IMG/VR virus record: IMGVR_UViG_3300034374_004221
Coordinates: 1-39,396 of that record
Direction: 5' to 3' (one strand)
DNA: 39,396 nt
Origin: a virus
This document shows, piece by piece, positions 23,671 to 31,170 of the stretch. The translations under genes were made by a program, and so were the position numbers. The notes beneath the pieces were generated by a model. That model was not told the DNA's origin. It did no database searches and worked only from the letters and a program-made list of their open reading frames with translations. The first letter of the stretch is position 1, and each line of letters starts with the position of its first letter.

Positions 23671-25408
23671 ACAAACAGAAAAGCTTATCCAGGAAGCTGT
23701 AGAAAGTTTTCCTGTTTTTGCTACTCACCTTTGGCACTACCTTCGTCTACCAAGCCCCACACCGGTTCAGTATCAACTTGCTGACTACCTGCAGAACGGT
23801 CCTGACAGGCGGATCATCATGGCGTACAGGGGCTGCGGTAAAAGCTTCCTGACAGCTGGTTACGTCCTGTGGAGGCTACGGAGAAACCCAGACACTAAGG
23901 TGCTGGTGATCTCTGCAGCTCAAGACCGTGCAGATGCGTTCAGTGTGTTTTGCCATGACCTGCTTCGGAACTGGTTCATGGTCAAAGATCTATTTCCAAG
24001 CGATACCCAGCGGTTTAGCAAGGTTGCGTTTGATGTCTACGGTGCAAAACCAGACCAAAGCCCCAGCGTCCGATCAAGCGGTATCTTCGGTCAAATCACT
24101 GGAAGCCGTGCTGATCTCATCGTTGCTGATGACGTTGAAACACCCCAGTCCTGTGAAACCCAACTGATCCGAGACAAGCTACGGGAGTCGATTAAAGAGT
24201 TTGACTCGGTGATCAAGCCTGGTGGTGAGATCGTGTTCCTTGGAACCCCTCACACCCAAGACAGTATTTACGCAAAGCTTGAGCTAGCTGGTTACTCCTG
24301 CCGGATCTGGCCTGCTTTATACCCCACTGCAAAGAAGCTTAAGAACTACTACGGAGACCGCTTAGCACCCAAGATCCTTACAGATCTAGAAGAAGACAAA
24401 AGCCTTGCTGGACATCCTGTAGACCCTAAACGTTTTGATTGGGAAGAACTAGAAGCTCGACAGCTTTCTATTGGACGTTCAACGTTCAACCTCCAGTTCC
24501 TCCTCGACATCTCCCTAAGCGACGAGGAGCGATTTCCCCTCAAGCTCAAAGACCTTTGTGTGTTCCGCCTAAACCGCGAGAAAGGCCCAGATAAGGTCGT
24601 GTGGATGGCTAACGGCGATAAAGCCCTAGACCTTCCTTCTGTTGGTCTTCACGGCGATCTGTTCTACAAGCCTGCCCAGATTGGCTCTGAGTTTCTGGAT
24701 TACACCGGGGTTGTCATGAGTGTTGACCCCTCTGGACGCGGCTCTGACGAGCTCGGTTACGCAGTAGTCGCCTACTTGAACGGTAACCTCTTCCTTCTCG
24801 CTAGCGGTGGACTTCGAGGCGGTTACAGCGAACCGAATCTGAAAAAGCTGTCTCTTATCGCTAAAGAGTTCAAGGTCAAACAAATATTGGTCGAAAGCAA
24901 CCTCGGCCTCGGGATGTTCTCGGAGCTTCTCAAACGCTACCTTGGCGTGATTTACCCCTGCTCTATTGAAGAGGTCCGACACACAAAACAAAAGGAAGTC
25001 AGGATTATTGACACCCTTGAGCCTGTCCTTAATCAACACCGGTTGATGGTTGACACGGACGTAGTCACTCAAGACCTTGCCTCCACTGAGTGCTATCCAA
25101 GCGAAACTCGTTCCCAATACCAGCTCTTCTTCCAGCTCACCCGTATTACTAAGGAGAAGAACAGTATCCGGCATGACGACCGCTTAGACGCTTTGGCAAT
25201 GGCTGTGCAGTACTTTACGGAGTCCATGGCTCAAACGGAAAAGCAAGCTATGGACGCTCGTTTGGCTGAACAGTGGGAACTGGAACGAAAGTTTATCCAA
25301 GGCGATGGTGGCCTCTCTATTGATGCCATTGGATACGCAACAAGCCTTGAAGACCTTCAAAAAGCCTCTATGGCATCCATAGGCGGTTGTAACTGGCTCG
25401 ATTCGTAA
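23654..25408 (+). CDS. terL: Large terminase subunit (T7 gp19-like)
   Basis: 584 residues. ATPase domain: Walker A AYRGCGKS at residues 57-64 and Walker B LIVADD at 155-160, followed by the coupling region EIVFLGTPHTQDSIY. Nuclease domain of the RNase H fold: SVDPSGRGSDELG with Asp358, and HDDRLDALAMA with Asp512. It is the packaging motor and concatemer nuclease. Length matches T7 gp19 (586). It overlaps nblA by 17 bases. A 546-base stretch with no + strand gene follows. Confidence 0.97.
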   Translation: MPRPNKQTEKLIQEAVESFPVFATHLWHYLRLPSPTPVQYQLADYLQNGPDRRIIMAYRGCGKSFLTAGYVLWRLRRNPDTKVLVISAAQDRADAFSVFCHDLLRNWFMVKDLFPSDTQRFSKVAFDVYGAKPDQSPSVRSSGIFGQITGSRADLIVADDVETPQSCETQLIRDKLRESIKEFDSVIKPGGEIVFLGTPHTQDSIYAKLELAGYSCRIWPALYPTAKKLKNYYGDRLAPKILTDLEEDKSLAGHPVDPKRFDWEELEARQLSIGRSTFNLQFLLDISLSDEERFPLKLKDLCVFRLNREKGPDKVVWMANGDKALDLPSVGLHGDLFYKPAQIGSEFLDYTGVVMSVDPSGRGSDELGYAVVAYLNGNLFLLASGGLRGGYSEPNLKKLSLIAKEFKVKQILVESNLGLGMFSELLKRYLGVIYPCSIEEVRHTKQKEVRIIDTLEPVLNQHRLMVDTDVVTQDLASTECYPSETRSQYQLFFQLTRITKEKNSIRHDDRLDALAMAVQYFTESMAQTEKQAMDARLAEQWELERKFIQGDGGLSIDAIGYATSLEDLQKASMASIGGCNWLDS

Positions 25409-25432
25409 GTCCACTCAGAATCGCCTAGAAGG

Positions 25433-25454
25433 CCCCTGAAAAACCTTTTAGGGG
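25433..25454. terminator. Inverted repeat between convergent terL and the - strand gene
   Basis: CCCCTGAAA and TTTTAGGGG arms pair over 9 bp around an AACC loop. It lies between two genes that converge. No clean T-run follows on the + strand. Read leftward, the stem itself holds TTTTT. It may act as a weak bidirectional terminator. The surrounding 100 bases repeat AGGGGCC / GGGCCTCT words. Confidence 0.4.
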
Positions 25455-25507
25455 TCAGAGTACCTAAAAGGGATTAGAGGGGCCTTCCTGGGGCTTCTAG
25501 GGGCCTC

Positions 25508-25675
25508 TCAGGACATTAAAGGCTCACCAGAGTTCCACATTGTTTTGAGATACGCCTCTAGGAACTCCTCGGGGTGTTGTTCCTTGGTTGCTGCTTCAAT
25601 CACCAAGTTCCAATACACCTTGCGGTCAAGCTCTAGGTGGATCTGAAATTTCTCTCTGTTTGGTCCAATCCACAC
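25508..25675 (-). CDS. 55-residue protein, possible ribbon-helix-helix DNA-binding regulator
   Basis: Read on the - strand from GTG (25675-25673) to TGA (25510-25508). The sequence has a short strand (KFQIHLELD), a helix (RKVYWNLVIEAATKEQ) and a second helix (PEEFLEAYLKTMW), the order expected for a ribbon-helix-helix repressor. The strand and helix lengths also fit. The start is uncertain: no clear Shine-Dalgarno sequence, and the frame stays open ten codons further upstream without ATG. The first of three iterons ends seven bases upstream of the GTG, which suggests the protein may bind its own leader. It is the only - strand gene here outside 20.6 and 29.7-30.4 kb. Confidence 0.55.
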   Translation of the reverse strand: MWIGPNREKFQIHLELDRKVYWNLVIEAATKEQHPEEFLEAYLKTMWNSGEPLMS

Positions 25676-25682
25676 GGTGGGT

Positions 25683-25787
25683 CTTACGCCAAGAACAGCC
25701 AGAGGTTAACCACCCCTCTAAGTGCTTACGTCAAGAACAGCCACCTCTAAAACTGGACCCCTCAACGACTTACGCTCTTGACAGCCG
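25683..25787. repeat. Three iterons, 42-44 bp apart
   Basis: On the + strand the copies start at 25683 (CTTACGCCAAGAACAGCCA), 25725 (CTTACGTCAAGAACAGCCA) and 25769 (CTTACGCTCTTGACAGCCG). Ends CTTACG and CAGCC are invariant. The 7-base middle is TCAAGAA-like in two and inverted (CTCTTGA) in the third. Spacing is about four helical turns. Between units ACCCCTC or similar also recurs. No CRISPR: only three degenerate units and no distinct spacers. Likely protein-binding sites, either operator or replication iterons. Confidence 0.75.
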
Positions 25788-25796
25788 TGCTTAGAG

Positions 25797-25945
25797 TGTA
25801 TTTAAAAGTATTTAAAGAGCTCTTTTAAAAAGGGTCTTTTACTGTTGTCTTATTGATAACGTTTGTTATCGTTTTAAGAGAAGGTTTAAAAAGGGTTTTA
25901 AAGAGGTTCTTCTGCTGCTATCTTTAAGTGCCTCTTTAAAAGCCT
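25797..25945. promoter_or_regulatory. AT-rich control region before thyX, left copy of the inverted element
   Basis: About 150 bases made of repeated TTTAAA words (eight copies). It contains the palindrome AAAGAGCTCTTT (25814-25825), the 19-mer TTTTAAAAAGGGTCTTTTA (25823-25841) whose exact reverse complement lies at 30448-30466, TTGTCT (25845-25850), and the dyad GATAAC-gttt-GTTATC (25855-25870). Iterons plus adjacent AT-rich DNA is the layout of an iteron origin. It is equally compatible with a divergent promoter region for thyX and the - strand regulator. I cannot point to a clean -35/-10 pair. Confidence 0.6.
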
Positions 25946-25954
25946 CTAAAAACC

Positions 25955-26593
25955 ATGAGTACTGTTGAACTAGTTACGGTTACTCCAAAGGCAGAAGAAC
26001 TCATTGTTTACATGGCTAGGGTTAGTAATCCTAGTAATCAAGAAAGTAATAACAACAACGAACGTTTAATTAACTACCTAATTACCCATAAACACTGGTC
26101 TCCTTTTGAGATGTGTCATATGGTCCTGGAGATCAACACCACAAGATCTATTGCTGCACAAATCCTGAGACACAGATCGTTCTCGTTTCAAGAGTTCTCT
26201 CAGCGATATGCAGATGTCAAAGAACTTGGATATCCCTATGTTCCTCACCTCAGAAGACAAGACCTGAAAAACAGACAAAACTCTATTGATGATCTCAACT
26301 CTGAAAAGACTCAGCTGTACTACAGAAGGATTAAACAGCTGTTTGAAGAATCAACAGACCTGTATCGAGAAATGGTTTCTAACGGTATAGCTAAAGAAAC
26401 AGCTAGAGACATCCTTCCCCTAGCTACTCCAACCAAAATGTATATGGCTGGTTCTATCCGTAGTTGGATTCACTACATCGATCTAAGGTCTCAAAACGGG
26501 ACTCAGATGGAACACATGGTTATTGCTCAACAAGCAAAAGAGATCTTTTGTAAAGAATTACCTACTATTGGTAAAGCTCTTACTTGGCTGTAG
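25955..26593 (+). CDS. thyX: Flavin-dependent thymidylate synthase ThyX
   Basis: 212 residues. The ThyX signature RHRxxSxxxxSxR is present as RHRSFSFQEFSQR at residues 72-84, preceded by HKHWSPFEM. The C-terminal part (LPLATPTKMYMAGSIRSWIH) is also family-typical. ThyX makes dTMP from dUMP using FAD, NADPH and methylene-tetrahydrofolate, raising dTTP for phage DNA. Many cyanobacteria and cyanophages use ThyX rather than ThyA. The gene follows an AT-rich control region and lacks a Shine-Dalgarno sequence. It stands apart from the other nucleotide genes at 36-39 kb, so it may be expressed earlier. Confidence 0.97.
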   Translation: MSTVELVTVTPKAEELIVYMARVSNPSNQESNNNNERLINYLITHKHWSPFEMCHMVLEINTTRSIAAQILRHRSFSFQEFSQRYADVKELGYPYVPHLRRQDLKNRQNSIDDLNSEKTQLYYRRIKQLFEESTDLYREMVSNGIAKETARDILPLATPTKMYMAGSIRSWIHYIDLRSQNGTQMEHMVIAQQAKEIFCKELPTIGKALTWL

Positions 26594-26595
26594 CC

Positions 26596-26811
26596 GTGGC
26601 TAGAAACTACCGTAAGGAATACGACAACTACCACTCATCGCCAGAACAGCGGGAGAACCGTAGTAGCCGTAATAAGGCTCGTAGGAAGCTCGCTAAGGCT
26701 GGTTACAACCTCAAAGGCAAGGACGTAGACCATAAGGACGGTAATCCCAAAAACAACGGGCGTAAGAACCTTCGGGTTGTGTCTAAAGAGTATAACCGGT
26801 CTAAGAAATAA
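26596..26811 (+). CDS. Small HNH-type protein
   Basis: 71 residues from GTG 26596, two bases after the thyX stop. Strongly basic. The C-terminal half (DVDHKDGNPKNNGRKNLRVV, then SKEYNRSKK) fits the HNH signature DH.DGN..NN...NL..........N found in small phage HNH nucleases. There is no zinc-binding CxxC, unlike the HNH at 23.2 kb. It may be a homing endonuclease or a degraded one. It is cotranscribed with thyX and followed 70 bases later by a strong terminator. Confidence 0.7.
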   Translation: MARNYRKEYDNYHSSPEQRENRSSRNKARRKLAKAGYNLKGKDVDHKDGNPKNNGRKNLRVVSKEYNRSKK

Positions 26812-26880
26812 TCCCGAGCGGTGTTAAAAAGTTCTAAAAGGTTTTAGCAATACTAAATGTTCCCGATAGGGAGAGTTTTA

Positions 26881-26912
26881 GAGGGTCCTAAGGGGTCCTC
26901 TTTTTTATTTTT
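26881..26912 (+). terminator. Intrinsic terminator of the thyX transcript
   Basis: GAGGGTCC (26881-26888) pairs with GGGTCCTC region (26893-26900) over 8 bp including two G-T pairs, with loop TAAG. TTTTTTATTTTT follows. It ends the thyX-HNH unit and opens a 617-base stretch without a gene. Confidence 0.9.
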
Positions 26913-26957
26913 GAAAGGGGTGAAAGGTTTTTGCTTCAGATTTTTGAGCACTAGTTA

Positions 26958-27005
26958 GCGTTAACGCCCCGGCCCGTTACCCCCTGGGGGGCCTTTAATC
27001 CGCCT
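26958..27005. promoter_or_regulatory. Palindrome and GC-rich inverted repeat
   Basis: GCGTTAACGC is a perfect 10-bp palindrome at 26958-26967. GGCCC (26971-26975) and GGGCC (26989-26993) form a further inverted repeat around CCCCCTGGGG, followed by TTTAAT. The second could be a terminator reserve or a protein site. No gene is visible here. Confidence 0.35.
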
Positions 27006-27020
27006 TGATAATGATTCTCA
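27006..27020. promoter_or_regulatory. Fur-box-like dyad upstream of the small-gene operon
   Basis: TGATAATGATTCTCA matches the 7-1-7 Fur/Zur-type consensus TGATAATnATTATCA at all but one of its 14 defined positions. On the opposite strand it starts TGAGAAT, the same half-site as the three dyads at 29.1-29.2 kb. It lies 408 bases before the first gene of the operon. Binding by host Fur or Zur is inferred from pattern only. Confidence 0.55.
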
Positions 27021-27121
27021 GTCGCAATAAATGGCTGTCCGAGGGGTCTTAAGGCGAAATCGTTATGAGTTTGGGGAAGTTTTGAGGGATTGATAAGTGC
27101 AGCTAATAGGTGGCGACAAAT

Positions 27122-27148
27122 GATAAGCAAAAGTTATCGGTATATATT
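27122..27148. promoter_or_regulatory. GATAA/TTATC dyad next to TATATATT
   Basis: GATAA (27122-27126) and TTATC (27134-27138) flank GCAAAAG, and TATATATT starts at 27141. A possible -10 (TATATT, 27143-27148) lacks a matching -35. The dyad resembles GATAAC-gttt-GTTATC before thyX. The 280 bases from here to 27428 contain the perfect palindrome TAGAGGCCTCTA (27191-27202) and a weak promoter candidate TTTACA (27311) -17 bp- TGTTAC (27334). I see no gene there. Confidence 0.35.
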
Positions 27149-27428
27149 CACGCGCTCGAGGCCGCAACTAACTAGGAACTAGGACGCTCTTAGAGGCCTC
27201 TAGGAGGCCCTAGAAGACCCTTTAAAACCCTTCAACACCCTTTGACACCTAAACAACCTCACAAGGCCCTCACAGCGGCTTACAGAGCTTTCTACTGATC
27301 CTGAGAACTCTTTACAAAACTTTAGTAAACAACTGTTACTGAACTCCTGGGCTGGGTCCGTCTCAGGATCTACCTTGGCTCTCGTCAGGCATCTTGCTTG
27401 GCTTTTTCCTTTTCCTTTCTTTAATCCA

Positions 27429-27626
27429 ATGAGAAACATCCGATTCAAGCTCGAGAACCATTTCGGAATGACTCGGGCTTATCCGTTGAGTCAGGAAGCA
27501 ATCTTGCTTTGCAGGCTCTCTAAAACTAAGACGCTGCTACCGGGTGATATTGGCACCATTGCAGCTCTTGGCTATCAAGCTGTGAACCAGTACGGCATCA
27601 AGATCGATCCTGCGGAGTTGTACTAA
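27429..27626 (+). CDS. Small protein of unknown function, first gene of operon
   Basis: 65 residues from ATG 27429. It begins MRNIRFKLENHFGMTRAYPL, then a helix EAILLCRLSKTKTLL and GDIGTIAALGYQAVNQYGI. Mixed alpha/beta with no recognised motif. It opens a run of seven genes that overlap or nearly touch. The stop overlaps the next ATG (TAATG). The leader region upstream is long and carries dyads, so regulation is likely at this point. Confidence 0.65.
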   Translation: MRNIRFKLENHFGMTRAYPLSQEAILLCRLSKTKTLLPGDIGTIAALGYQAVNQYGIKIDPAELY

Positions 27627-27739
27627 TGCTGTTACTTATCGCCCTTTTGTCCTGTGTTCTAGCAGTAAGCTCAACCAACCTATGGCTGTGTGTTCTGTTC
27701 GCTGCTGTCTCTGCTGTTTGCTTTCTCTCTAATCAATGA
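27626..27739 (+). CDS. 37-residue membrane peptide
   Basis: ATG 27626 lies in the TAATG overlap with the previous gene and TGA 27737-27739 overlaps the next ATG. The product is almost wholly hydrophobic: MLLLIALLSCVLAVSSTNLW followed by LCVLFAAVSAVCFLSNQ. Two short membrane segments, or one signal-like segment plus one, with a Cys in a near-lipobox setting (LLSC). Function unknown; host membrane targeting is plausible for an early phage peptide. Confidence 0.65.
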   Translation: MLLLIALLSCVLAVSSTNLWLCVLFAAVSAVCFLSNQ

Positions 27740-27948
27740 AACTCACACAACTACAAAAGGAACTAATCAGAAGCTACTCAAGGGCTGACATTAGATCACC
27801 TCAACAAATGCTTGCGTTGTTGTTAGCTGAGGGTTTCCGGTTTCTTTACTTTGACAAAGAAACAATAGAGCCCGTAGGAGTTACAGCAAAGGAAGCTGTA
27901 GACCTAATCCTTAACGAGTTAAAAACTGACCTTTTGAAAGATGATTAA
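27736..27948 (+). CDS. Small helical protein of unknown function
   Basis: 70 residues from the ATG in ATGA. Helical, beginning MKLTQLQKELIRSYSRADIR, then PQQMLALLLAEGFRFLYFD and an acidic helix TAKEAVDLILNELKTDLLKDD split after LNEL. No domain recognised. The 3' end overlaps the next start by eight bases. Soluble, probably a small interaction protein. Confidence 0.65.
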   Translation: MKLTQLQKELIRSYSRADIRSPQQMLALLLAEGFRFLYFDKETIEPVGVTAKEAVDLILNELKTDLLKDD

Positions 27949-28069
27949 CCCTCACAACGACTCTGCTTTTTATGCTTACGCTGATTGGGCTCTAGCTCAA
28001 GAGATTGCGTGGGATGAGGCACAACAGGAACTAGAAGAACTCGAAACTCTACAGGATGACGAACAATGA
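27941..28069 (+). CDS. 42-residue acidic peptide
   Basis: ATG 27941 overlaps the previous stop region and TGA at 28067-28069 overlaps the next ATG. It reads MINPHNDSAFYAYADWALAQ, then an acidic helix EIAWDEAQQELEELETLQDD EQ. Strong negative charge is common among phage anti-host peptides, but no function can be assigned. The exact ATGA coupling on its 3' side supports it being translated. Confidence 0.6.
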   Translation: MINPHNDSAFYAYADWALAQEIAWDEAQQELEELETLQDDEQ

Positions 28070-28260
28070 GCACCCACGAAATTAAAGCAAGCGACCTCAC
28101 TTGGGCTGAGATTAACTTTGAGAGTCCTAAAGAGGCTTTCAAATTCGCTGACAAACTAGAGCAAAAGCTCAAAGATCCAAACCTAACTGAAGAGCAAAGA
28201 AAGCAGTTAGATGACTGTTTAGATGACCTGTTCTCTACTCTCTTTGACGGAGCTTTCTAA
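28066..28260 (+). CDS. Small acidic protein of unknown function
   Basis: 64 residues from ATG in ATGA. Helical: SDLTWAEINFESPKEAFKFA, then DKLEQKLKDPNLTEEQRKQL and an acidic end DDCLDDLFSTLFDGAF. No family recognised. It ends two bases before the next ATG, so it is cotranslated with the cysteine-rich protein that follows. Confidence 0.65.
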   Translation: MSTHEIKASDLTWAEINFESPKEAFKFADKLEQKLKDPNLTEEQRKQLDDCLDDLFSTLFDGAF

Positions 28261-28262
28261 TC

Positions 28263-28958
28263 ATGACAACCTTCCATCTCACCACAAAGAGCTCTAATAA
28301 GAAACTAGGCGGCTTGCCTGCTTCTACCACCAGTGCAGACTCTTGCCCTTTGACTTGTGGCCTCTATCACGTTTGCTATGCAAAGAAGGGGCCTCAGTCT
28401 TGGCATTGGGCAAAAGTTAACAAAGGGACTAGAGGAACAGACTGGCCTAGCTTTCTCTCTCAAATAGAGAAACTAAAGTCTGGCTCTCTATTCCGTCACA
28501 ACGTATCAGGTGACCTTCCAACAATCAACGGAGGCCTTCTAGATGTAGTGAAACTAGACCAACTGCAGTGTGCAACGACAAACACAAACGTAAGTCTTTA
28601 CACCTACACTCATTGGCACACTGACAAAACGTTCGGTAAAACTAACGTTGATTCAATCAAGCGATTCTCACAACCTGGCTTTGTTATTAATATTTCAACC
28701 GAAACAATAGAAGATGCAGCCTTTTATAAATCAACGGGTTGTGATGTAGTTATAACAAATACAACTGTTTTTGACTTTGCAGTGAGAGCGATTAAAGACA
28801 ACAAACAACCCTTACAAATAGTTTCGACTGAAGATCTTACAGAGCCTGTAAAGGTCATTCCTTGCCCTGAACAATATACAGAGAGCGCAACTTGTAAGAC
28901 TTGCAAGCTGTGTTCAAGATATAACCGAGACTATATCATTGCGTTTAAAGAGCATTGA
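28263..28958 (+). CDS. Conserved phage/plasmid-type protein with N- and C-terminal cysteine clusters
   Basis: 231 residues. The N-terminal part (SNKKLGGLPASTTSADSCPL, then TCGLYHVCYAK) and C-terminal part (CPEQYTESATCKTCKLCSRY) hold Cys clusters that bracket an alpha/beta body. I recognise the overall pattern from hypothetical proteins of phages and plasmids (I believe DUF7227-like) but know no demonstrated activity. Seven or more conserved-looking Cys suggest bound zinc or an iron-sulfur cluster. That it lies between Fur-box-like dyads at 27.0 and 29.1 kb makes a metal link attractive but unproven. Confidence 0.75.
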   Translation: MTTFHLTTKSSNKKLGGLPASTTSADSCPLTCGLYHVCYAKKGPQSWHWAKVNKGTRGTDWPSFLSQIEKLKSGSLFRHNVSGDLPTINGGLLDVVKLDQLQCATTNTNVSLYTYTHWHTDKTFGKTNVDSIKRFSQPGFVINISTETIEDAAFYKSTGCDVVITNTTVFDFAVRAIKDNKQPLQIVSTEDLTEPVKVIPCPEQYTESATCKTCKLCSRYNRDYIIAFKEH

Positions 28959-29038
28959 TGAAAGAGCTCTACATTTCCGTAGGACTATTCTTTCTCCCAA
29001 TAGTTGTAACGCTTCTGGGTTTATTAAGAGCCCAATAG
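28958..29038 (+). CDS. 26-residue single-pass membrane peptide
   Basis: ATG 28958 overlaps the previous stop (TGATG) and TAG ends it at 29038. The product is MKELYISVGLFFLPIVVTLL followed by GLLRAQ: one membrane helix with charged ends. It is the last gene before a strong terminator 12 bases downstream. Its coupling and clean topology argue for a real micropeptide. Confidence 0.55.
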   Translation: MKELYISVGLFFLPIVVTLLGLLRAQ

Positions 29039-29050
29039 ATATACCTAACA

Positions 29051-29083
29051 GGCTCCCATCTTGGGGGCCTTTTAATTGTATTT
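29051..29083 (+). terminator. Intrinsic terminator of the small-gene operon
   Basis: GGCTCCCA (29051-29058) pairs with TGGGGGCC (29062-29069) over 8 bp with one T-G pair and a TCT loop. TTTTAATTGTATTT follows. Confidence 0.85.
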
Positions 29084-29089
29084 AGTTAT

Positions 29090-29204
29090 TGAGAATGAGT
29101 TGCAATATCAGTAGGGCTAACCCGGAATGAGTATGAGTTAGGTCTTATTGCAAACGATTCTCAATAGCAATAAGACTGGGTTCGGTTATTGAGAATGCGA
29201 CTCA
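29090..29204. promoter_or_regulatory. Cluster of three Fur-box-like dyads
   Basis: Three 15-bp sites share the half-site TGAGAAT: TGAGAATGAGTTGCA (29090-29104), TGCAAACGATTCTCA (29149-29163, opposite orientation) and TGAGAATGCGACTCA (29190-29204). Each is flanked by TAT on the left and ATA on the right, so the extended site is TAT-15 bp-ATA. The middle site is also framed by exact 10-bp arms GTCTTATTGC (29142-29151) and GCAATAAGAC (29167-29176). Together with the site at 27006 they resemble Fur-type operators (TGAGAATnATTCTCA). They lie in the 261-base gap before the gene at 29300. A phage-encoded repressor is the alternative binder. Confidence 0.6.
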
Positions 29205-29299
29205 ATAGCAGAAAGGGGACTACTATCACGCCACGGGGCACAAAGCAGTAGTCCCAGGTATTTCCACTTAGATTGCCTTTTAGAGACTTGTCTTCAAAG

Positions 29300-29701
29300 A
29301 TGCTAGTCCCAGCCAACGCCAAGGAGAAGTTCTACGCACCGCTTAAACAAGTGGCTGCTCAGTATGTACCGCTTCTGATGGCTCGAATGAAGGTGCTACA
29401 AGGTCGAGCCAATCACGCGCTTGAGTTCTTGGAGTGTGAGGAGTCAGATGAGGAACAGGAATTGGTGTGGATGGATGAGCCAGAGCGAATTGTTGCAGTG
29501 GCTGAGGCACAGTCCGTACTACACAAATCAGTGTTAGAAGCAGGGATGTGCCAGTCGTTAGTCGGTGCATTTGCTGATCTCTTAGAAGAGGACTACCAAA
29601 AGATCAAAGAAAGCCGCTGTTTCTTCATGAACGAAGAAGGAGATTTTGAATCTCTTTACGAGGATGATGAGTCCAACGACTTTCCTTGGTCTAAAGGTTA
29701 A
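29300..29701 (+). CDS. Acidic helical protein of unknown function
   Basis: 133 residues from ATG 29300; an in-frame TTG at 29273 would add nine residues. Helices (LKQVAAQYVPLLMARMKVLQ; VAEAQSVLHKSVLEAGMCQS) alternate with acidic stretches (ECEESDEEQE) and it ends in an acidic tail with FPWSKG. No domain recognised. It stands alone behind the Fur-box-like cluster and its stop codon shares TTAA with the stop of the converging - strand gene. It is thus the gene most directly placed to be controlled by those dyads. Confidence 0.7.
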   Translation: MLVPANAKEKFYAPLKQVAAQYVPLLMARMKVLQGRANHALEFLECEESDEEQELVWMDEPERIVAVAEAQSVLHKSVLEAGMCQSLVGAFADLLEEDYQKIKESRCFFMNEEGDFESLYEDDESNDFPWSKG

Positions 29702-30000
29702 CCATCAACCGTAGCAGGAGAGGGGTCTACAAGCCTCTGTAAGACCTCTTGAACACCGAACTGGTGGGTATACCCCAAGATCACGTCAAACACGGCTTGT
29801 AGGCGCTCTGGGGCGTCAATGAGAGAGTCTTTAAACCTCTCGTTCTCCCAATACGCACAAGCACAAGCTTTGATGATCTCATCACGAAGAGCTTTGTCGC
29901 ACATTGCGTCTAGTTCTTCGTCTGTGTATTTAGTTGCTGTTCCAGTGTCTGATGACACCAGCGATGATGAAACTGTTGGTGATGCAGTAGAAAAGTTCAA
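29698..30000 (-). CDS. Third gene of - strand operon, unknown function
   Basis: 100 residues, probably from TTG at 30000 that overlaps the previous stop; the first in-frame ATG is at codon 33. A Ser/Thr-rich start is followed by YTDEELDAMCDKALRDEIIK, ACACAYWENERFKDSLID and a helix VFDVILGYTHQFGVQEVLQR. Two Cys in ACACA. Mixed helical protein without recognised domain. It converges on the + strand gene at 29300-29701 and the stops share four bases. Confidence 0.6.
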   Translation of the reverse strand: MNFSTASPTVSSSLVSSDTGTATKYTDEELDAMCDKALRDEIIKACACAYWENERFKDSLIDAPERLQAVFDVILGYTHQFGVQEVLQRLVDPSPATVDG

Positions 30001-30200
30001 GAAGCTTCAGTTCCCTCCAGCTCATTAAGGATCTCAAGTGCTTCCGGGAATAGGTCGTACACCGCTTCCATGTAGCCTTCCCAGTAGTCACGATCTCGCT
30101 CACAAAGAGGCTGTTTGAGTTGTTGCCTTGGGTATTCAAGCAACTCAAGAATATCAGCCATTGTGTAGCCAATTACACCATCATCAAGATGAATAGGCAT
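29997..30200 (-). CDS. Second gene of - strand operon, unknown function
   Basis: 67 residues from ATG at 30200-30198, which overlaps the stop of the upstream gene (TGATG); a GTG one codon earlier is possible. Sequence MPIHLDDGVIGYTMADILEL, then LEYPRQQLKQPLCERDRDYW and an acidic helix EGYMEAVYDLFPEALEILNE. No recognised domain. Tight coupling to both neighbours supports it as a true gene. Confidence 0.65.
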   Translation of the reverse strand: MPIHLDDGVIGYTMADILELLEYPRQQLKQPLCERDRDYWEGYMEAVYDLFPEALEILNELEGTEAS

Positions 30201-30373
30201 CACTTCTCATCCCACAGAGAAGGATCGTAGTAATCATCTTTTGTAGCTTCTTCTTTATCTTCGTCTTCTAATTCAACTCTTTCAACTAACCCTTCAGCTT
30301 CAAGCTTTTTAAGTGCTTGTTCAACTAGTTCAATATCTTCATTGAGATACTGACTAAGTTCTTCGGAAGTCAT
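30200..30373 (-). CDS. First gene of - strand operon, small winged-helix-like acidic protein
   Basis: 57 residues from ATG (30373-30371) to TGA (30202-30200). The first 33 residues (TSEELSQYLNEDIELVEQAL, then KKLEAEGLVERVEL) read like a helix-turn-helix plus wing of the kind found in small DNA-binding proteins. The second half is a strongly acidic tail (EDEDKEEATKDDYYDPSLW). No Shine-Dalgarno sequence is apparent. It is nearest to the divergent control region at 30374-30609 and may be a regulator, but the acidic tail could equally mean a DNA mimic or anti-host factor. Confidence 0.6.
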   Translation of the reverse strand: MTSEELSQYLNEDIELVEQALKKLEAEGLVERVELEDEDKEEATKDDYYDPSLWDEK

Positions 30374-30572
30374 TGTTAGTGCTTTTTAAGATGGCGATAA
30401 AGAAACTCTTTTAAAACGGTTTAAAACAGTCTTAAAAAGGGAGACAATAAAAGACCCTTTTTAAAACCTCTTTAAAAGAGCTCTTTAAAAGGTAATGAGA
30501 GAGGTCTCTTTTGTCTACCCCTTAAGAGGTCACTTAAAAAGCTGTCACACCTCTCTGATTGGACGTAAGCAC
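30374..30572. promoter_or_regulatory. Divergent control region, right copy of the inverted element
   Basis: AT-rich region between the - strand operon and the replication operon. It contains AGACAA (30442-30447), the 19-mer TAAAAGACCCTTTTTAAAA (30448-30466), the palindrome AAAGAGCTCTTT (30475-30486), and, further right, GCTGTC (30541-30546) with GACGTAAGCAC (30562-30572). The same words in the same order occur on the - strand at 25850-25683 going leftward. Many TTTAAAA words recur. It likely holds the promoters of both operons, but no convincing -35/-10 pair is visible. Confidence 0.6.
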
Positions 30573-30609
30573 CGCAGGTACTTTCTGTGAGTCCTTTCGC
30601 GTCATCGAG

Positions 30610-31170
30610 ATGCAAGTCCAAGGAACACTGACTGGGTGGATCCCTGACTTCTACGACACTCCTACCTACAACGGGGAGCCCTGTGATTTCCGTTTGAAGG
30701 TCCTTGTGCAAGAGGCTGATGAGCTGCTGGAAGAGCTCAGCGAGGAGTACGACAAAGCCTGTGCTTGGTGGCGTGATGCCACGGGGCGTAAGAGCTTCTA
30801 CGATGCTCCGTTTGAAGCCAACGAAGATGGCTCAGTGGTGGTGAAGATGACCGCCAAGCTGTCTTACGAGGAGTTTCCACTGCCGGTGGTGGATAGCGAG
30901 CTGCAACCCATTGCTCGTGATTTGAAGCTGCGTGAAGGCTCTGAAGTGCTCGTAGCCATCAAGCCTACGTTCATCCCTCGTAAAGCGCCTAAGGGAGGCC
31001 TCAGGCTGTGTCCTAAGGGCATTCAGGTGTTGAAAGCTGTGACTATCACAGGCACTGACCGTGGTGATTTTGACATCACGAAAGCTTTTTCAAAGCAATC
31101 TGGCTTCAAACAAAGCAAGCCAAATCTGCAAGAACTTGCTACTGTGTCTGGCGAAGATCCTGACTTTTGA
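30610..31170 (+). CDS. Single-stranded DNA-binding protein (T7 gp2.5-like)
   Basis: About 186 residues from ATG 30610; an in-frame TTG at 30559 would add 17 residues but overlaps the control region. It has an OB-fold-like beta-rich core with aromatic residues (LTGWIPDFYDTPTYNG; ACAWWRDATGRKSFYDAPF). The acidic C-terminus ends in GEDPDF, with the terminal Phe used by gp2.5 to contact polymerase and helicase. It binds exposed ssDNA and aids annealing. It opens the replication operon and is followed at once by endonuclease I. Confidence 0.85.
   Translation: MQVQGTLTGWIPDFYDTPTYNGEPCDFRLKVLVQEADELLEELSEEYDKACAWWRDATGRKSFYDAPFEANEDGSVVVKMTAKLSYEEFPLPVVDSELQPIARDLKLREGSEVLVAIKPTFIPRKAPKGGLRLCPKGIQVLKAVTITGTDRGDFDITKAFSKQSGFKQSKPNLQELATVSGEDPDF

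Follow-up and report, generated by a model that had tools for sequence, protein, structure and literature searches.

In replicons and at partition sites (e.g. TubR/tubC), iteron arrays consist of tandem short direct repeats served by one oligomerising protein. The p6 protein of phage phi29 takes up 12 bp per monomer at sites near both genome ends, with roles in replication initiation and in the early-late switch (PMC10899789); the Syn5 RNA polymerase uses the promoter ATTGGGCACCCGTAA (PMC3950665); and P-RSP2 is an isolated outlier among the marine cyanopodoviruses (PMC4646655, PMC9860041). Here we analysed IMG/VR record IMGVR_UViG_3300034374_004221 (the window, meaning the whole stretch of 39,396 bases), a slightly incomplete linear contig from a T7-like cyanophage, in which two inverted copies of one composite element lie either side of a region that includes thyX. 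We propose, with a probability of roughly one half, that the copies are paired operator or iteron arrays, and that these may be the control regions of one regulon under one common, probably phage-encoded, DNA-binding factor.

The window belongs with the P-RSP2-like cyanopodoviruses, a clade recognised by a related terminase and matching late gene order: its terL is 74% identical in nucleotides to that of Prochlorococcus phage P-RSP2 (HQ332139), and the late genes are collinear. Comparison with a near-identical relative (G005, 99.96%) gives the piece absent from the window as the 5' part of the portal gene plus small genes, and matches between the window and another relative (G001, 43,353 bases) run full circle. 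No single-subunit RNA polymerase gene was found in the window, G001, G003 or P-RSP2, all compared with the Syn5 and P-SSP7 polymerases, which detect each other at 1e-130 or better; the DNA polymerase was readily detected in the same comparison, the combination expected of the clade. Because the phage has no such RNA polymerase gene, it is presumably transcribed by the host RNA polymerase. Separately, a 125.8-kb contig (L020, IMGVR_UViG_3300042503_000838) includes a single copy of a phage of this 40-kb type beside mostly unrelated sequence that carries a second, different DNA polymerase, and is possibly a chimaera.

Two inverted arrays with a 12-bp period

The words of the composite element stand at the positions and in the order claimed by an earlier reading made from sequence only (hereafter the sequence-only reading), on the + strand at right and on the - strand at left:

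30442, + strand: AGACAA of the right copy.
30448-30466, + strand: the 19-mer TAAAAGACCCTTTTTAAAA of the right copy, exact match.
30475-30486, both strands: palindrome AAAGAGCTCTTT of the right copy, inside a second exact inverted 19-mer at 30471-30489.
30541-30572, + strand: GCTGTC (at 30541) to GACGTAAGCAC (30562-30572) of the right copy.
25850-25845, - strand: AGACAA of the left copy (GACAACAGTAAAAGACC).
25841-25823, - strand: the 19-mer TAAAAGACCCTTTTTAAAA of the left copy, exact match.
25825-25814, both strands: palindrome AAAGAGCTCTTT of the left copy, inside the second exact inverted 19-mer at 25811-25829.
25785-25780, - strand: GCTGTC of the left copy.
25732-25722, - strand: GACGTAAGCAC of the left copy.
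25769-25785, - strand: GCTGTCAAGAGCGTAAG, first of three left GCTGTY...CGTAAG copies.
25725-25741, - strand: GCTGTTCTTGACGTAAG, second of these copies.
25683-25699, - strand: GCTGTTCTTGGCGTAAG, third of these copies, 7 bp ahead of the GTG of a small open reading frame.

The first 19-mer is exact in both copies, about 4.6 kb apart, and within the window is confined to these two places; the second exact pair overlaps the palindrome. Aligned with the right copy, the reverse complement of the left gave a best local score of 34 (dinucleotide shuffles: mean 11.1, maximum 17), and the longest exact inverted match was 19, against a shuffle maximum of 15. Taken singly, the hexamers AGACAA and GCTGTC are common: counting both strands, the window has 21 of the first and 33 of the second. 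The left AGACAA word recurs among relatives as variants of GACARCARAAGACC. The left GACGTAAGCAC is part of the second of the three GCTGTYnnnnnCGTAAG copies, which end at 25769, 25725 and 25683. Spacing is unequal: a unit of 11-12 bp between the 19-mer and the palindrome is found solely in the right copy, and this difference is the key to the nature of the copies as arrays.

Each copy is the core of a complete divergent intergenic region. We collected these gaps across the relatives, window included (71 left gaps, between terL and thyX, and 33 right gaps), and found that on both sides they are arrays of TTAA-cored units with the consensus CCTCTTTAAAAG, 100-160 bp long and with units of about 12 bp. 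In the window they comprise:

25676-25954, - strand: left control region, the divergent gap between a 55-amino-acid minus-strand open reading frame and thyX, lying between terL and thyX.
25802-25954, - strand: left iteron array, TTAA cores at 25802, 25812, 25825, 25874, 25886, 25898, 25924 and 25936.
25790-25795, - strand: -10-like hexamer TCTAAG, in register with the left array and with no -35 hexamer.
30374-30609, + strand: right control region, the divergent gap between m57 and the SSB-position gene.
30386-30490, + strand: right iteron array, TTAA cores at 30386, 30411, 30421, 30432, 30461, 30472 and 30485.

Left-array core spacing in the window is close to multiples of 12, and across the relatives TTTAA-to-TTTAA distances cluster at 11-13, 24-25, 35-37 and 47 bp, with very few in between. 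The spectral peak falls at 12.1 bp in 25 left regions and at 12.0 bp in 14 right regions, with a period power of 3.6 and 3.8 against shuffle maxima of 1.7 and 2.4, respectively, and there is no signal at 10.5 or 11 bp in the left or right regions. Units point mostly in a single direction (CTTTAA:TTAAAG is 104:47 on the left, read on the - strand, and 47:18 on the right, read on the + strand), and the gaps thus hold tandem direct repeats of fixed period and polarity, as iteron arrays do. Both arrays read outward, each is sited between divergent genes, and their polarity is inverted in most lineages. The left gap also contains an inverted repeat, GATAACGTTTGTTATC (25854-25870), with altered forms in L022 and L091, possibly a separate thyX operator.

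The sequence-only reading would have failed had the element been a motif standing before many other operons; the two gaps are instead the two places densest in TTTAAR in the window, G001, G002 and G003, with a narrow lead in G003 (5 and 5 vs 4), the test being uninformative for the pair in A+T-rich P-RSP2 and in the fragment G004. We scanned 2.9 million viral contigs for the three-unit pattern CTCTTTAA-N3-6-CTCTTTAA-N3-6-TTTAA and obtained 28 stretches, 23 of which adjoin terL and/or thyX of the clade, every one antisense to those genes; clade marker genes were not seen in the matching contigs L126/L141, L134, L136 and L137. Among 83 bacterial stretches with the pattern none is titled cyanobacterial, which disfavours a host factor using this vocabulary. 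A limited search of the open-access literature found no description of such arrays in cyanophages. The cyanobacterial Pho box has an 11-bp period; as the identity of these 12-bp arrays we rejected it on period and on the same lack of cyanobacterial titles.

The vocabulary drifts across lineages, and the left and right regions of the same genome drift together. With eight genomes, one per lineage, the summed within-genome left-right score was 264 against a permutation mean of 186, and was reached by 12 of 40,320 permutations; controls in which the region after HNH replaced the left or the right gave no comparable excess (7-44% of permutations reach the score). Turning the left region into the opposite orientation left some excess as well (88 permutations), as expected because the words are partly palindromic. 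Since left and right change together, they probably bind one common protein. The shared control suggested by the sequence-only reading is supported by this concerted evolution within genomes, by the same architecture on both sides and by the rank of the two gaps as the densest sites.

A candidate regulon

In the proposed regulon one sequence-specific protein, probably encoded by the phage, would oligomerise on both arrays; once bound, it would recruit or block the host RNA polymerase, and the replication operon, the divergent m-gene cluster, thyX and a short leftward transcript would be switched together at the early-to-middle transition. Downstream of the array both sides carry a CACTYTAA-like stretch (TCTAAG/TATAAC on the left), followed by GCTGTC and CGTA(A/T)G; GCTGT-CGTAAG is repeated two or three times on the left, and on the right GCTGTC lies 17-19 bp from CGTA(A/T)G among relatives. 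In most lineages a TCTAAG/TATAAC-like, outward -10-like hexamer lies 3' of the left array and may act as a promoter. An activator would fit, because the array lies just upstream of a -10-like hexamer that has no -35; repression would be equally possible. No sigma-70 promoter with both hexamers at 16-18 bp spacing occurs in either region, and the only such site in 25380-30700 is at 27120-27148.

Several observations count against a regulon of this kind. Sites spaced at 12 bp wind around the helix, an uncommon arrangement for classical activators; a convincing -10 is missing from the right array, and a -35 from both regions. In 10 of 31 sequences the left outward unit includes no open reading frame of 30 amino acids or more, and L043 and L063 score higher in the non-inverted orientation. 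The conserved early proteins p142 and pA71, when modelled, gave no match to a DNA-binding fold: the p142 model comprises two long helices, and its sole clear match is a 129-residue protein of 40% identity, fitting a P-RSP2 homologue; the pA71 model is a confident small alpha/beta fold with no match. The m68 and m100 proteins are acidic, and no protein binding the arrays was identified among the products examined.

A cyanopodovirus that has no RNA polymerase of its own needs a way other than that of T7 to time its early, replication and late genes and to start DNA replication. The co-evolving pair of 12-bp arrays, confined to two places per genome, is a concrete, testable candidate for such a switch, and a bait for its protein.

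Flanking genes and probable genome ends

The arrays adjoin or enclose the following features:

25508-25675, - strand: 55-amino-acid open reading frame 3' of the left element, lineage-variable, with a weak ribbon-helix-helix-like pattern.
25955-26593, + strand: thyX, FAD-dependent thymidylate synthase (Pfam PF02511, E 4e-48).
26584-26811, + strand: HNH nuclease-like open reading frame (PF13392), directly after thyX clade-wide.
26929-27165, + strand: probable terminal-repeat region (genome end), with the conserved block TTTTTGAGCACTAGTTA..CCCCCTGGGGGG on its left side and contig ends at 27165.
29698-30373, - strand: cluster of m100, m68 and m57, divergent from the replication operon; m100 and m68 are conserved.
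30610-31170, + strand: SSB-position gene (ATG at 30610), first in the replication operon.

In each of the 12 contigs reaching across both gaps the order is terL-left-thyX-HNH-...-p142-(m100)-right-SSB, nothing being inverted or missing, and no empty or inverted allele of the intervening region was found among them; the region is therefore no mobile or invertible module. Nor is it fairly called accessory, as it had been, since its main genes (thyX, HNH, p142, m100 and m68) are conserved across the clade.

The most likely place for the ends of the linear genome is between the two elements, near 26.95-27.17 kb, which would put the elements near opposite ends of the virion DNA. The block TTTTTGAGCACTAGTTA..CCCCCTGGGGGG follows HNH in nearly all relatives that reach this point, and partly in P-RSP2. 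Eight contigs end 186-242 bp past the block, two of them at the identical base 27165, a clustering with a scan probability of 0.00015 under uniform ends (post hoc, and with some contigs near-identical). The corresponding end of Syn5, about 0.25-0.5 kb past thyX, carries a terminal repeat of 237 bp, and P-SSP7 has one of 206 bp (PMC3350473).

Further features were noted around this site. At 26929-26996 a strikingly conserved non-coding sequence, TTTTGCTTCRGATTTTTGAGCMCTAGTTA, precedes sequence like CCCCCTGGGGGG in nearly all relatives; this is probably either a packaging site or the edge of the terminal repeat. The sigma-70-like ATGATA-17-TATATT at 27120-27148, shortly ahead of the probable genome end (27165), is a candidate early promoter. 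Palindromes resembling Fur/Zur boxes (TTGATAATGATTCTCA, TATTGAGAATGnnnTGCAATA; 27004-27029 and 29085-29216) precede the first early genes and, three times, the p142 gene, and similar words occur in P-RSP2, in several relatives and twice within the Syn5 terminal repeat. In the P-RSP2 record (L003, HQ332139) about 515 bp are present at both ends (1-520 and 41740-42257); the two copies differ slightly at their outermost positions and probably reflect overlap in the assembly, not a terminal repeat.

The site of the 55-amino-acid open reading frame, between terL and the left array, is a hot spot of unrelated small leftward open reading frames among relatives. In about nine relatives the product shows a strand-helix-helix pattern with YWxLV, resembling ribbon-helix-helix proteins; no profile confirmed this identity for the 55-amino-acid frame, and many relatives have no open reading frame there. 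Across from it, the minus-strand regulator of the sequence-only reading is doubtful: the 57-amino-acid m57 matches winged-helix models below their cut-offs, and its N-terminal half is not conserved. The SSB-position gene is named by its place before the endonuclease, primase-helicase and polymerase, as in Syn5, and has no Pfam match above cut-off. Its leader (30562-30609, CGTAAGCACCGCAGGTACCTTCTGTGGGTCC) is kept even in distant relatives; RNA folding gave four weak pairs with a covariation term of -0.14 and no Rfam match at its cut-off, and we rejected a structured RNA leader, as base pairing had no support.

Alternative explanations and known systems

T7-type origins are primed by the phage RNA polymerase, and this clade has no phage RNA polymerase of that kind, a point in favour of a possible but doubtful alternative, also raised by the sequence-only reading: that the arrays are replication origins, where an initiator would bind the iterons and melt the A+T-rich repeats. 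Two such origins would each be close to one end of the linear genome, at a distance of about 3.2 kb on the left and about 1.2 kb on the right. The iterons themselves, their 60% A+T, the adjoining replication operon and thyX, the two end-proximal copies and the frequently non-coding left outward unit are all consistent with this. However, GC skew does not switch clearly at either site, no gene can be recognised as an initiator, and both copies stand in divergent promoter-like gaps with common downstream words at and after the likely transcription start.

Origins and a transcription switch might also be combined: in a T7-like lineage that has no RNA polymerase of its own, a phage protein would bind two sequence-specific nucleoprotein arrays of 12-bp period close to the genome ends, and these would serve both purposes; we consider this unlikely. 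It is improbable, too, that the arrays nucleate a genome-organising nucleoprotein filament with both roles, like that of p6: the period of 12.0-12.1 bp matches the 12-bp monomer spacing of p6, with end-proximal sites and a dual role (PMC10899789), but p6 recognises bendability (PMC10899789) where these arrays keep strict words, phi29 replication is protein-primed, and no p6-like protein was seen among the proteins scanned, a set that covers part of the small open reading frames.

Slippage-like expansions in some relatives (e.g. L050) would fit non-functional simple repeats kept alike through gene conversion or slippage. This is quite improbable, as period, position, polarity and flanking words persist across large divergence, and simple conversion is insufficient because the left and right copies differ in detail. 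Promoters of a phage single-subunit RNA polymerase are very improbable: CGTAAGCA equals the 3' part of the Syn5 promoter plus its transcript start, and CGTAAG(CA) is shared with the Syn5 sites, but the 5' half of that promoter is absent and the window, the circular-looking G001, G003 and P-RSP2 have no RNA polymerase gene. Finally, the exact inverted 19-mers might have been recombination or inversion ends of an inserted 4.7-kb module, as once suggested, but this can be dismissed on the invariant order in all 12 spanning contigs, the conserved genes and probable genome ends inside, the loss of identity past 19 bp and the differing unit number.

Compared with described systems, the paired arrays resemble the phi29 p6 complex in their 12-bp register and end-proximal sites, and differ in that p6 reads bendability rather than words on a protein-primed genome. 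With the iterons of replicons and partition sites they share tandem short direct repeats, here as two dispersed inverted arrays in a lytic T7-like phage. Syn5 likewise has the CGTAAG word ahead of replication genes, and has such a promoter right after terL; unlike Syn5, the clade carries neither the RNA polymerase gene nor the full ATTGGGCACCCGTAA promoter, and the Syn5 terL-thyX gap has no such arrays. P-RSP2 differs in its 34% G+C, with arrays that do not rise above the A+T background, but shares the late gene order, the lack of an RNA polymerase, p142, HNH and the terminal block, and has TTAA words 12, 12 and 18 bp apart after terL.

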